Shown one piece after another: positions 10,989 through 32,383 of a DNA stretch of 64,000 nucleotides. The DNA comes from Gallionella sp. (GTDB lineage: Bacteria > Pseudomonadota > Gammaproteobacteria > Burkholderiales > Gallionellaceae), in assembly GCA_022340615.1 (NCBI GenBank), contig JAJDNO010000005.1:1-64000 (forward strand). The letters run 5' to 3'. The notes beneath the pieces are model-generated. The model did not search any database, was not told the origin of the DNA, and saw only the letters and a program-made list of their open reading frames with translations. The position numbers and the translations under genes were made by a program. Each line of letters begins with the position of its first letter. The stretch's first letter is position 1.

Positions 10989-13900
10989 CTAATTATCCGG
11001 TTTGCCCGGTTTCGATACGGCGGGTGCCCGGTTTACTCTGACCACGTCCGGATCACGCCAAGAACCGGTCACATTGTATTCAAATGACGCCAACTTATCG
11101 AGCGGATTGCCCAGAACCTTGTTCATGATCAGCGATCCGATCCCGACCGCCGGACTGATCGCAAATGCGCCGATCAGCGACACGCTGTCACCCAGGGTAG
11201 GCAATATCCTTACGTGCAGATTTTGAGTTTCATCATTCAGGTTGATGTCGCCTTTCATCGTCACCTTCGCGGATGAACCGTAAATTCGGAAATCCTGACT
11301 ATTAATGATGCCGTCCTTGATGGAGGCATTGCCATTGATGCTGTCGAACTGGAAGCCCTCGCTGAACACGTCGGTAAAGCCCAGCGCGATATGTTTCGGC
11401 AAATCCTGCAGGCTGAGCACACTGAGCAATTTCCCGGCACCCGGATCCATTTTCAGGAACTTGCCCTTGCCGGCATCCAGTTTCAGCGAGCCATCCAGCG
11501 TGGCATAGCTGAAATTTTCCGGCGGGCCCGCCCAGGACAGGTCTGCCGTCAGCCTGCCACTGCCGCCCTTGACGGTATTTGGATAACCGGATCGGGCAAG
11601 TATCTTCCCTGCATCGCTGATGTCCAGCATCAATTTGAGCTGGGTATTCTGCTGTCCTTCCGTATCGCCCCAGACGCCGTCTCCAACCAGGCTGCCGTCC
11701 GGATTAGCGATATTCAGGCGGCGCATCCGCCAGTCGCTGCCCTCGGGATGTCCGATCAATTCGAAGTGGCCGATGTGTTTTCCTTTGACCAGCAGGTTCT
11801 CGATCGAGATATCCAGAGCCGGAATATCGCCCGGTATTGTCCTGTCCGCCTGTCCGGGTTCGGCAGATTTGTCAGGTACGGACACATTGGCTGGCGTCCG
11901 GGTAAACTGCTCGTCACCCGACAATTTCAGGTTGCTGAATCTGGCGCGGAGCATGTTGCCAGATTCGTATCCGTGAGGTTCCCAAACCACCTCCCCCTTC
12001 AGCCCGACTCCGCTAAGCCGTGCAGCCAGACCGTCGCCACGACGGTTAGCGACGACGTGCACAGCGCCAACATGCTGGCCGTAACCGCTCAATTTCCCGA
12101 TATTCAGATTCGCTCCCGCGATGACCGACCAGGTACCGTCACCGGCCAAACGGGCTGACGATCCGGGCAGCTTTGCCGCATGACTGGCGGCAACCCCTGA
12201 ACCGCCGGCTGCGGCGGATTTTTTCGCGGAGCCAGCCAGTCCGCCCCAGCCCTGCAGCGACAGTTCCGGCAGGCTGCCGACCAGCCATACACCATCATTC
12301 CGGCGATGTCTGACGCGTGATGTTTCCCGCGCAATCGTTGATGGAGGCAACTTGTCCGTGGCACCAAAGCTGACCACACCGCGCTTGACCACCATTGCCC
12401 CTCCCTGGTTCTGTCGCTCCAGCCGGGCACCGAGCAGATTCCCGAGCCGGGCGGTAACCACATCACGATCCGGGTCAGGAACACTCTCAGCTTTGGGGCA
12501 ATCACCGACGCAATGTCTGACAGGTTCTGGCGGGAGCAGAACCGGGCTGCGTTCCACGCGCAGCAGCATGGACTCTCCTGCGGACTTCGCAAACGGCGCC
12601 GGCAAACTGGAACTCAATCCCTCCAATCTGGACGTAACGACGACCTGCGCGGACTTTTTGACCACGCTGACATCGGCATCCCAATCCGTGCTGCCGTGCA
12701 GGTAATTCAGCACGGAATAGTGTTCGGTCTTGCGCAGCAGGTCGACATTGCTTCGCCCCGTGACTTTGGCATGCACCGTACCGTCCTCGCTGCTCTGTAC
12801 ATTGATGGTCGCGGGTCCGCCGAGTATTTCCGCTGACACATCGTCGGCATGCATGCCCGCTTCGTTAAATTCCAGTGTTCCCCGGGTCTTGTACAGAACC
12901 GGCACTTCCTTGCCCAGCTCGATTTGGTTGTCCTGCACCTTGATCGTTCCCGACACCTTCACCGGGTTGTCTCCCGACAGCGGAATGTGCGCGGACAAAT
13001 CAAGCTGCCCGTTCCCCTTGGCGCCAATACCGTCGGTAAACCCGTGTATATAGCTCCGCACCGGACTTTTCTGGACGAATTCAAGGAACGAACTGCTTGC
13101 GCCGGTCGCCTCGCCATTGATTTCCAGCGACTTATCCTTGCTCATCATGTCCGGTATCGTGACAGTGACGTTGTGCAGCTGCGTGTCGAGGATGGTCGCC
13201 GACGGCGACTCCACGACCAGCTTGTTGCCGCGTATCAAAAATTCGCCGGAAATATGCTCGATGCTCGGCCAGTGCTTGTCGAATTCCAGCACTGCATCCC
13301 GCGCGTGGCCGCCGATTTCAAGCAGCACATCCTTGCTGCGGCGCGAGCCGGCAGGGCTGGCGCAGCCGGCTGTCTGGTCCATTGAAGGATGGGGTGCTGG
13401 AGTTGGCGCAACTGCACTTGCCACGCCCTGTTGTTGCTGCAGGGCGGAAAGCTCGGCAACGCCGGAAACGCGGGCAAGATCCGGCGAGTTGCGGGGCGGA
13501 TTTCGATCCTCCTTTCCGGATGGCTGTAAACACTGTGCTGCACCGTTCCGGAAGTCGCTCAGATTGCCCTTGATGCGGATACGAAAGTCTTCGGTATGGC
13601 CGGCTTTCAGCGCGTCATTCAGCCAGTCACTGGCCGGCCCGTGCAGCGCGATCAGCGGGGTATAACGGGCCGCGCGCCGGATATCGCCGCGCGTCAGTTT
13701 TCCGGTCAGGTCCAGCACTCCCAGTGTGCCGGCCTGAGTCCGGTAACTGCCGTACAAATTGCCGGCCAGATCATCATTGGAAACCGCGATATTGTCGGCA
13801 TTGATCGACAACTCTCCATCCTTGCGCTGCCAGGATCCCTGCCCGATCAGGGTAGCAAACGACAACGGTTCGCGCATTTCATCCGGCGCGTCGACGACCA

Positions 13901-29525: not shown

Positions 29526-30701
29526 TCAGTTGCCCATACCGCGTGCAAGATCGTTCTGTATATCCACGACTGCTTCCAGGCCGACCGCGATGCGGATCAG
29601 GCCCTCGGTAATGCCTGCCGCCGCGCGGGCCTCCGGGGTGATGCGCGCATGGGTGGTGCTGGCCGGATGAGTGATCGTGGTCTTGGTGTCGCCAAGATTC
29701 GCGGTAATGGACAGCAGCCGGGTGTTGTCGATGATGCGCCAGGCAGCATCCTTGCCGCCCTTGACCTCGAACGACACGATACCGCCGCCGGTTTTCTGCT
29801 GGCGCATCGCCAGTTCGTGTTGCGGATGCGATGGAAGGCCCGGATAGAAGACCCTGGACACATTAGCCTGTGCTTCCAGCCAGCGTGCCAGTTCGAGCGC
29901 GTTCGCGCTGTGCGCGTCCATGCGCAGCTTGAGCGTCTCCAAACCCTTCAGAAACACCCAGGCGTTGAACGGGCTCATGGTCGGGCCGGCAGTGCGCAGG
30001 AACCCGTAAACGCTTTCCATGTTCTTCCTGCTGCCCAGCACAGCACCGCCGAGCACCCGCCCCTGACCGTCGATGTACTTGGTCGCTGAATGGATCACGA
30101 TATCCGCGCCCAGCAGCAGCGGACGCTGCAGTATCGGCGTGCAGAAACAGTTGTCCACCGCGAGCAGCGCACCGCAACTCCTTGCGATTGCCGCAATAGC
30201 GCCGATATCGGAAATCTCGGTGAGCGGGTTAGACGGCGTCTCCAGGAAAAACAGTTTCGTTTCCGGCCGCACGGCGGCTTTCCACTCGGCAACATCGGTG
30301 GCAGACACGTAGGATGTTTCGACGCCGAATTTTCGGATCACGTTGTTGAACAGGTTCACCGTGGAGCCGAACAGGCTGCGCGAAGCAACGACATGGTCGC
30401 CGGCCTTCAGAACGCCCATCACGCAGGCCAGTATCGCAGACATGCCTGATGCGGTCGCCACGCACTGCTCTGCCCCTTCCAGCGCGGCGAGCCGTTCCTC
30501 GAACATCGTCACGGTCGGGTTGGTGAAGCGCGAATAGATATTCCCGGGCTGTTCGCCGATGAAGCGCGCGGCCGCCTGGGCGGCATTCTCGAACACGAAA
30601 CTGGAAGTCAGAAACAATGCTTCGCTGTGTTCGCCAAACTGGCTGCGTGCAGTGCCGGCGTGCACTGCCAGCGTTTCCGGCTGGTAGGTTGATTCAGACA
30701 T
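29526..30701 (-). CDS. metZ: O-succinylhomoserine sulfhydrylase
   Basis: Cys/Met-metabolism PLP enzyme: YQPETLAVHAGTARSQFGEHSEALFLTSSFVFENAAQAAARF...VIHSATKYIDGQGRVLGGAV. Confidence 0.93.
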   Translation of the reverse strand: MSESTYQPETLAVHAGTARSQFGEHSEALFLTSSFVFENAAQAAARFIGEQPGNIYSRFTNPTVTMFEERLAALEGAEQCVATASGMSAILACVMGVLKAGDHVVASRSLFGSTVNLFNNVIRKFGVETSYVSATDVAEWKAAVRPETKLFFLETPSNPLTEISDIGAIAAIARSCGALLAVDNCFCTPILQRPLLLGADIVIHSATKYIDGQGRVLGGAVLGSRKNMESVYGFLRTAGPTMSPFNAWVFLKGLETLKLRMDAHSANALELARWLEAQANVSRVFYPGLPSHPQHELAMRQQKTGGGIVSFEVKGGKDAAWRIIDNTRLLSITANLGDTKTTITHPASTTHARITPEARAAAGITEGLIRIAVGLEAVVDIQNDLARGMGN

Positions 30702-30711
30702 GTTGGCCTCT

Positions 30712-30750
30712 CAAAACAAAAAACCCGGATAGCTTGAGCTAAACCGGGTT
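30712..30750 (-). terminator. Intrinsic terminator in the metZ leader (riboswitch expression platform)
   Basis: Minus strand AACCCGG-TTTAGCTCAAGCTAT-CCGGGTT-TTTTGTTTT; 7-bp GC-rich stem plus inner TAGCT/AGCTA stem, then U-tract. Confidence 0.88.
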
Positions 30751-30754
30751 CCCC

Positions 30755-30807
30755 ACGCTTTAGCCGAATTTATTATGCGCCCGCAAGCTGATCCTCAAAT
30801 CGGCGCA
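30755..30807 (-). promoter_or_regulatory. SAM-II (SAM-alpha) riboswitch aptamer upstream of metZ
   Basis: Minus strand UGCGCCGAUUUGAGGAUCAGCUUGCGGGCGCAUAAUAAAUUCGGCUAAAGCG: P1 UGCGCC/GGCGCA, conserved GAUUU loop, UUGC, AUAAAU linker and 3' GCUAAA, as in the SAM-II consensus. Confidence 0.9.
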
Positions 30808-30815
30808 GGCTGAAA

Positions 30816-30843
30816 GGTATCACCCGGCTTCTGTTGTTGTCAA
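30816..30843 (-). promoter_or_regulatory. Sigma-70-like promoter for the metZ leader
   Basis: TTGACA (30838-30843) then TGATAC/GATACC after 15-16 nt, just upstream of the aptamer. Confidence 0.5.
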
Positions 30844-30856
30844 ATTCGGCCCGGAC

Positions 30857-32383
30857 TCACATCGAGGTTGAACTGACCGCGAGATTCAGCTCCAGCTGGT
30901 CGTCTTCGATTGGCGGATTGGCAGCCCCGCTGGCGCGCAGCGCTTCGACCCGGTTCAGGTAATCCGCGCTCACATCGCCGGTGATATAGACACCATCGAA
31001 GCAGGACGCATCGAAGCTGTTGATCTTGGGGTTGGCTTTGTGGACGGCCGCCTTCAGATCATCGAGGTCCTGGTAGATGAGCCGGTCGGCGCCAATCTCG
31101 CGGCAGATTTCATCGTCGCTGCGCCCGGTCGCGATCAGCTCCTGCGGGCTGGGCATGTCGATGCCGTACACATTCGGGAAGCGCACCGGCGGTGCCGCGG
31201 AAGCGAAATACACCTTGCGCGCACCGGCATCGCGCGCCATCTGGACGATCTCGCGGCTGGTAGTGCCGCGCACGATCGAGTCGTCGACCAGCAGCACGTT
31301 CTTGCCGTTGAATTCGACGCCGATCGCATTCAGTTTCTGACGCACCGATTTCTTGCGCATTGCCTGTCCTGGCATGATGAAGGTGCGCCCGATGTAGCGG
31401 TTCTTCACAAAACCCTCGCGAAACGGGATGTTGAGGCGGTTCGCCAGCTGCAACGCGCTGGGGCGGCTGGAATCCGGGATCGGGATCACCACGTCGATGT
31501 CGATCTCGCTCCAGCTGCGCAGGAGTTTGTCGGCCAGGTATTCGCCCATGTACAGGCGCGTCTCGTACACCGAGATGCCGTCGATCACCGAGTCTGGACG
31601 CGCCAGATAGACGTATTCGAAAATGCACGGGTTCAAGGTTGCCTTGTCGCTGCACTGCTTGCTTTGCAGATTACCGTCGAAATCGACGAACACCGCCTCG
31701 CCCGGTTTGATGTCGCGCAGAAATTTGAAACCCAGGGTATCGAGCGCGACGCTTTCCGATGCAACCAGGTACTCCGAACCGTTGGGGGTCTGGTTCACGC
31801 CTATCACCAGCGGGCGGATACCGTAGATATCGCGGAACGCGAGCAGACCGTAGCCCGCGATCATCGCGACGACTGCATAGGCGCCGCGGCAGCGCCGATG
31901 CACGCCGGACACCGCTGAAAAAATGGTTTGCGCATCGAGCCGGTATTGCCTGGAGTTGACCTGCAACTCATGGGCCAGCACATTCAGCAGCACTTCCGAA
32001 TCGGAGTTGGTGTTGACATGGCGCAGGTCTTCCGCGAACAGCTGCTGCTTCAGTTCGTCCGCATTGGTCAGATTGCCGTTATGGCCGAGCATTATGCCGA
32101 ACGGGGAATTCACATAGAACGGCTGCGCCTCGTTGTGGTCCACCGCGGATCCGGCAGTCGGGTAGCGCACGTGTGCGATCCCCGCATTGCCGAGCAGCGA
32201 ACGCATATGCCTCGTGCGGAACACGTCGCGCACCAACCCGTTGTCCTTGTGCAGGTGGAAGGTATGTCCTTCCACGGTGGCGATTCCGGCCGCATCCTGG
32301 CCGCGATGCTGCAATACCTGCAAGCCGTCATACAACAGCTGGTTGGCCGGTGATTGCGAGATCAATCCGAGTAAGCCGCACAT
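30857..32383 (-). CDS. purF: Amidophosphoribosyltransferase
   Basis: [36 protein letters not shown]...[22 protein letters not shown]. Confidence 0.97.

Follow-up and report, generated by a model that had tools for sequence, protein, structure and literature searches.

The question raised by this locus is whether the short leader in front of metZ, on the minus strand of the window (the whole stretch of 64,000 nucleotides that was analysed), is a SAM-II riboswitch, and if it is, how it acts and how it came to stand in a betaproteobacterium. A sequence-only reading had proposed such a switch from the layout of the leader, i.e. a P1 stem, a GAUUU loop, UUGC, an A-rich linker and a 3' GCUAAA, about 50 nt upstream of metZ. 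That layout is present, from 30807 down to 30751, and the 3' end of the aptamer lies about 50 nt before the metZ ATG (30701-30699). We consider it highly probable that the leader is a SAM-II riboswitch controlling metZ through transcription attenuation; SAM as the ligand, a SAM-dependent pseudoknot and termination in the cell are its predicted properties. The promoter, the terminator and the antiterminator pairing had no place in the earlier account. The features of the locus are as follows.

30838..30843, minus strand: -35-like element TTGACA, from the sequence.
30814..30822, minus strand: extended -10-like element TGATACCTT, from the sequence and its conserved spacing.
30740..30816, minus strand: extent of the match to RF00521 (SAM-II), 35.6 bits, E 1.5e-6, model positions 1-79.
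30756..30807, minus strand: SAM-II aptamer from P1 to the end of the pseudoknot, from the sequence, the RF00521 match and alignments.
30802..30807, minus strand: 5' strand of P1, UGCGCC, partner of 30776-30781; 6/6 pairs show changes on both sides (92 matches not chosen by sequence).
30776..30781, minus strand: 3' strand of P1, GGCGCA; covariation in the same 92 matches.
30797..30801, minus strand: GAUUU, putative third strand of the ligand-binding triplex, conserved in alignment A1, with its role taken from SAM-II and SAM-V structures (PMC6061858).
30783..30786, minus strand: 5' strand of P2b, UUGC, pairing with GC(U)AA at 30760-30764; 100% paired, invariant.
30759..30764, minus strand: GCUAAA, 3' strand of P2b, putative ligand-contact nucleotides and antiterminator strand, from folding and alignment.
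30738..30743, minus strand: UUUAGC in the 5' arm of the terminator, complementary to GCUAAA (30759-30764), together the predicted antiterminator; pair probability 0.98-1.0 for nascent RNA ends from 30737 to 30726.
30724..30748, minus strand: intrinsic terminator hairpin CCCGG..CCGGG, -12.3 kcal/mol; probability 1.0 with the P2 strands sequestered.
30713..30723, minus strand: U tract UUUUUUGUUUU, from the sequence.
30707..30712, minus strand: Shine-Dalgarno-like GAGAGG, from the sequence.
29526..30701, minus strand: metZ, O-succinylhomoserine sulfhydrylase, the downstream gene (NCBIfam NF006003, 732 bits, cut-off 522).
30857..32383, minus strand: purF, the upstream gene, outside the switch (NCBIfam TIGR01134, 525.7 bits).

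P1 joins U30807-C30802 to G30781-A30776, CUUGC is present, and the linker reads AUAAU-AAAU. In the likely register of P2b, U30786, U30785, G30784 and C30783 would pair with G30764, C30763, A30761 and A30760, leaving U30762 unpaired for the ligand. We infer this register from the structural description of the SAM-V and SAM-II site, in which the adenine of SAM is bound by a U and the aminoacyl end by an A, with a U:A.U triple opposite the sulfonium (PMC6061858). P2a is a single pair (C30790-G30756) and not an extended helix, whereas a 5-bp P2a is found in 60% of SAM-II members; an extended P2a is not obligatory, as the crystallised metX SAM-II has 2 bp (PMC6061858). The position of TTGACA (30843-30838) and TGATACCTT (30822-30814) suggests that transcription would start just before or at the first base of P1, and a start near the first base of P1 was described for SAM-II by Corbino et al. 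(PMC1273637). The arrangement TTGAC-N18/19-TANNNT precedes 115 of 180 leaders, and 0-1 after dinucleotide shuffling. The default scan, a consensus scanner, flagged neither promoter nor terminator in the leader region, because an interrupted terminator stem and a promoter spacer of 18 nt are outside its rules.

In the default gathering-threshold scan of the window SAM-II is absent and a tRNA is the sole listing. Nevertheless, the cmscan match to RF00521 covers the full model, with the above E value calculated for the 401-bp stretch (2.0e-6 for the whole genome), and it is the sole RF00521 match in the genome (2.27 Mb, 99.5% complete). The curated gathering cut-off of the family is 36 bits. The sequence-only reading was prepared to give up the assignment for a cmsearch score under this value, and the score is indeed 0.4 bit under it; the full-length match and its E value speak for the family all the same. 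The rule is a poor test here, since the metZ leaders of relatives fall both above and below 36 bits: RF00521 matches 74 of 150 relatives, 33 of them above the cut-off. The betaproteobacterial matches mostly lie at 25-48 bits vs about 50-88 bits for SAM-II otherwise. R1, a covariance model made from betaproteobacterial relatives, scores the element at 81.9 bits, which is partly so by construction.

The strongest evidence that such hits are not chance is the genes that follow them. The surroundings were fetched for 148 matches found with RF00521 or R1, a few of whose loci overlap. Downstream on the same strand stands metZ or a PLP relative in 95 cases, metX in 27, metK in 6, metH in 2 and metF in 2. 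A methionine or SAM gene is thus found in 132/148 (89%), and many of the other 16 are tandem arrangements before small genes of unknown function. At three loci (L014, L060 and L113, about 1612; in L060 at 2378) a gene for an FMN_bind_2 (PaiB-like) protein stands between aptamer and metZ; this gene occurs there in some Gallionellaceae and is thus placed under the switch.

The leader shares with the SAM-II class of Corbino et al. (2005) P1, GAUUU, UUGC, the A-rich linker and GCUAAA, as well as the promoter just before P1, the terminator after P2 and the methionine gene downstream. It differs in the P1 sequence, which is GCGCC/GGCGC here vs CGUGGU/ACCACG in RF00521. SAM-V has in common with SAM-II an H-type pseudoknot and the SAM site (PMC6061858), and with our leader a short P2a, but it is translational. 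No Rfam match to SAM-V was found at the window up to an E of 10, and we therefore discard SAM-V, or another SAM class, for the window leader.

The paired structure was examined in two alignments. The first (A1) consists of 63 leaders chosen by a core-sequence pattern that fixes the P2 letters; P1 and P2 jointly are paired in 97.9-98.1% of its cells, with 31 cells changed on both sides. A1 supports P1, while the invariance of its P2 is partly due to the selection. For this reason the count was redone on 92 matches found by covariance models and not chosen by sequence (A4). Here all six pairs of P1 are changed on both sides, so the covariation that the sequence-only reading expected in close relatives is there, and 98.2% of the P1 cells are paired. 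The whole structure is paired in 98.9% of cells, as against 25-52% in the slid controls, and 76 cells are changed on both sides vs 18.8 in shuffles (0/500 shuffles as high). The P2b core UUGC/GC(U)AA is 100% complementary but invariant in A4, i.e. its pairing is neither supported nor refuted by covariation. A homopurine pair of positions reads GG in 87 sequences and AA in 4, with no mixed combination. A G-G/A-A covariation was predicted for SAM-II by Barrick and Breaker (PMC2258182), and under our own mapping of the positions it appears to be kept here.

The proposed mechanism is that of an attenuator. RNA polymerase would start at the promoter between purF and metZ, and the first ~50 nt would fold into P1, joined by the P2 pseudoknot when SAM is bound. 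With SAM, the 3' strand of P2, GCUAAAGC, would be locked in the aptamer, the terminator at 30724-30748 with its U tract would form and transcription would stop before metZ, i.e. high SAM would turn metZ off. Without SAM, GCUAAA would pair with UUUAGC of the terminator 5' arm, which would delay the terminator and let the polymerase read into metZ. On the folding model, this pairing shared by P2 and the terminator arm is a classical antiterminator. When the nascent RNA is folded with no SAM constraint the antiterminator has a probability of ~1.0 up to base 30726, the terminator starts to win at 30724, and at full length the terminator is the ground state. The antiterminator can thus compete only by kinetics, which is usual for attenuators. 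The program used folds no pseudoknots, so a constraint had to stand in for the SAM-bound state; under it the predicted probability of the terminator is 1.0 once P2 is sequestered.

The same design is seen in the relatives. A terminator-like hairpin with a U tract follows within 110 nt in 157 of 179 unique leaders, and in 110 of these 157 the 3' strand of P2 pairs with the terminator arm better than with 95% of shuffled arms, where near 8 are expected. The relatives are not independent of one another, but the sequence of their arm varies (UUUAGC, UUUGGC, CUUUAG) and the pairing is kept. A comparable case is the metZ SAM-II of S. meliloti, for which a SAM-dependent terminator is also predicted and a terminated RNA of ~100 nt rises in rich, high-SAM medium (PMC9373788). 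It has the target gene name and the predicted mechanism in common with our leader; its host is alphaproteobacterial, and the likeness is one of description. L024, L059 and L062 have an additional stretch of ~60 nt, with hairpins of its own, in the loop of the terminator; in L059 and L062 it matches no Rfam family.

Since the ribosome-binding site is the target of some SAM-II members (PMC6061858, PMC9373788), one could suppose that SAM controls the translation of metZ and not its transcription. Here the Shine-Dalgarno-like site lies ~45 nt beyond P2 and outside it, with a strong terminator and its U tract in between, and we regard translational control as extremely unlikely. We give just as little credit to the suggestion that the hairpin at 30724-30748 is the terminator of purF, preceded by a SAM-II remnant that has ceased to regulate. 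It is true that purF ends at 30857, ~100 bp upstream on the same strand, and that the aptamer is absent at metZ in 38 of 81 relatives. However, the aptamer core, the pairing of P1, the promoter and the antiterminator pairing are intact and conserved, the same pair of aptamer and terminator stands before metX in the same genome, and relatives in which the leader has decayed have visibly broken aptamers (L050 and L095). The latter two have kept GCUAAA and the terminator, ~150 bp before metZ, but no longer have the 5' half of the aptamer, apparently a decay that is still going on.

The SAM-II element is not confined to metZ in this host. A second copy was found on contig 15 at 13247-13307, plus strand (L192 2248-2308), where R1 gives 65 bits; RF00521 missed it in the whole-genome scan. 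It lies directly before metX (homoserine O-succinyltransferase) and is followed by a terminator-like hairpin. In this genome the element thus stands before the genes for both reactions that lead from homoserine to homocysteine. A reading of the metK leader of the host showed no SAM-II-type element there.

These two sites bear on an element that was described as novel in 2014. Leyn et al. reported SAM_alpha only in Rhizobiales and Rhodobacterales, and separately a metXZ element in Betaproteobacteria with a stem 1-4, a pseudoknot 2-6 and a terminator; in most genomes it precedes metX, in Thiobacillus, Nitrosospira and Methylophilales metZ (PMC4239095). All these traits, the pseudoknot as a predicted pairing and with metX or metZ downstream, are found in our host at both genes, and in Thiobacillus and its relatives the target changes to metZ for the described element and for our leaders alike. 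The metZ leaders of Thiobacillus (L092, L102) carry the SAM-II core, which suggests that the metXZ element is SAM-II, a match at the level of the described architecture. The difference is that it was presented as new, without a link to SAM-II, and no paper making this link was found in the literature searched.

This separate description is also an argument for a different ligand, i.e. for a SAM-II-like attenuator that senses SAH, methionine or homocysteine, for example, with metXZ as a class of its own; the reduced P2a and the Rfam score below the cut-off point in the same direction. Yet all the SAM-II ligand-contact motifs (GAUUU, UUGC, GCUAAA) are conserved, relatives with the same core exceed the Rfam cut-off, and alphaproteobacterial SAM-II discriminates strongly against SAH (PMC1273637). 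We find a ligand other than SAM very unlikely, and SAM-II remains our reading of the leader.

A second name may be attached to the same switch. RF02424 (Bp2_287) comes from a study of Burkholderia pseudomallei, where it was reported before metZ and metX and called a methionine cis-element (PMC3521395); its entry is that of an sRNA of the opposite strand. In the window this model matches the strand opposite to the leader (30718-30840, plus strand) with 19.3 bits, far under its cut-off of 70 bits, so a real antisense RNA at this place is unsupported. In three genomes it scores 37.4, 28.7 and 28.0 bits, again far below the cut-off and opposite an R1 SAM-II match. Among 23 genomes tested it gave 5 matches, and the two without SAM-II overlap (L263, L266) look like chance. 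Loci with RF02424 on the opposite strand of a SAM-II leader are L153, L158, L181, L203, L262, L264 and L265. As judged from these overlaps, RF02424 is probably a model of this switch built on the wrong strand.

As to the host, the nearest named relatives of its metZ (89-92% identity) are mostly from Gallionella and Ferrigenium metagenome assemblies, which makes the organism a member of the Gallionellaceae; the earlier guess of a betaproteobacterium was right. In NCBI terms the Gallionellaceae belong to the Nitrosomonadales, and their GTDB order is Burkholderiales within the Gammaproteobacteria. SAM-II before metZ in such a host is borne out by the RF00521 match, the matches in relatives and the NCBIfam assignment of metZ.

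The sequence-only reading had left a choice between horizontal spread and an under-reported lineage. R1 matches 293 of 399 genomes (73%) and 128 of 158 genera (81%) of the host's order, which corresponds to the former Betaproteobacteria. In the class, RF00521 is matched by 118 of 369 genomes; elsewhere in the phylum it has further matches, mostly at ~46-88 bits, and in 14 control genomes it has none. The element is also present in many gammaproteobacteria. On a tree of 81 MetZ proteins, 43 with the aptamer and 38 without, its presence requires 10 changes vs 27 with shuffled labels, in an unrooted count that treats gain and loss alike. This clustering, together with the two sites at metX and metZ, suggests that the lineage has long had the element and lost it repeatedly at metZ, and not that it was imported recently. 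Horizontal acquisition is not favoured, given the order-wide presence and the clustering on the tree. The alternative of an under-reported lineage holds in part. Betaproteobacterial SAM-II was noted early, with a Bordetella example in Corbino et al. 2005 (PMC1273637), members with terminators in beta-Proteobacteria in Barrick and Breaker 2007 (PMC2258182), and alpha, beta and gamma groups named by Meyer et al. 2009 (PMC2704228); the 2014 survey, on the other hand, confined SAM_alpha to two alphaproteobacterial orders. Two further observations were made on the way. The metZ of L083, titled 'Rhizobium sp.', falls among Hydrogenophilales and Thiobacillus in the tree, and the assembly is probably mislabelled. 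A genome of the same class (G746; L172, L212, L214) holds five SAM-II copies that pass the Rfam cut-off, and some of these precede genes with no evident link to methionine.

A divergent SAM-II-like form stands alone before metK in other families (e.g. f8, f20, f21). Its sequence is CCGCCGAGUUAA..GACAACUUGCGA.GGCGG..AUAAAU..CGCUAAAGCGUC, and the subtype follows the pattern GAGUUAA...GACAACUUGC...GCUAAAGCGUC with a P2a of GAC/GUC; the variant GAGUUAA..ACAACUUGC..GCUAAAGCGUC is seen in L280, L282, L284-L290, L293, L294 and others (at about 1500). Representatives scanned up to an E of 1 gave no match to an Rfam riboswitch family at the site, no U-tract terminator was seen, and the form was not found in the literature searched. 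Pooled with related tandem elements, its P1 has 7 cells changed on both sides (0/500 shuffles as high). A second model, R2, matches 288 of 399 genomes of the order, a number that cannot be counted as metK subtype since ordinary SAM-II is matched by R2 too, with 49.3 bits for the window. At three loci an SAH riboswitch (RF01057) lies right behind a metK with a SAM-II-type leader (L153 2909, L170 2830, L284 2896), which would place SAM and SAH sensing in adjoining units.

A similar form is the second member of tandems in which the first member is an ordinary SAM-II with a terminator. Such tandems are present in L172, L181, L196, L203, L210, L212, L214, L267, L271 and L273, and the second aptamer, of the GAUUUAA/ACAACUUGC type, is close to the start codon. 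Tandem SAM-II pairs as such are known, with 44 examples (PMC9481103). Directly behind the second aptamer we also observed proteins of 104-114 aa starting with MYDC or MFDC (L203 1719, L267 1698 on the minus strand, L291 1608, L296 1611, L310 1614); the three tested have no Pfam match, and a function related to SAM or methionine is possible.

Taken together, we think it rather probable that Betaproteobacteria carry a distinct branch of SAM-II which comprises the orphan metXZ element of 2014 and, as its antisense, RF02424, and which includes a divergent metK subtype that Rfam does not recognise. If this is true, the metK subtype would provide the feedback of SAM on SAM synthetase that has been missing in these bacteria, for which metK was stated in 2014 to be without a known regulator (PMC4239095).

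For metZ itself the finding would mean ordinary SAM feedback on methionine synthesis by a known kind of switch, and SAM-II outside the Alphaproteobacteria is not new. What matters is that the Rfam SAM-II model is at or below its own cut-off for much of a whole order, so that the switch was probably redescribed under two names, metXZ and Bp2_287, while the metK form is still unlisted. With a corrected RF00521 model, the methionine genes of a large fraction of betaproteobacterial genomes could be assigned a ligand and a mechanism, and the 2014 statement on the regulation of metK would be addressed as well.
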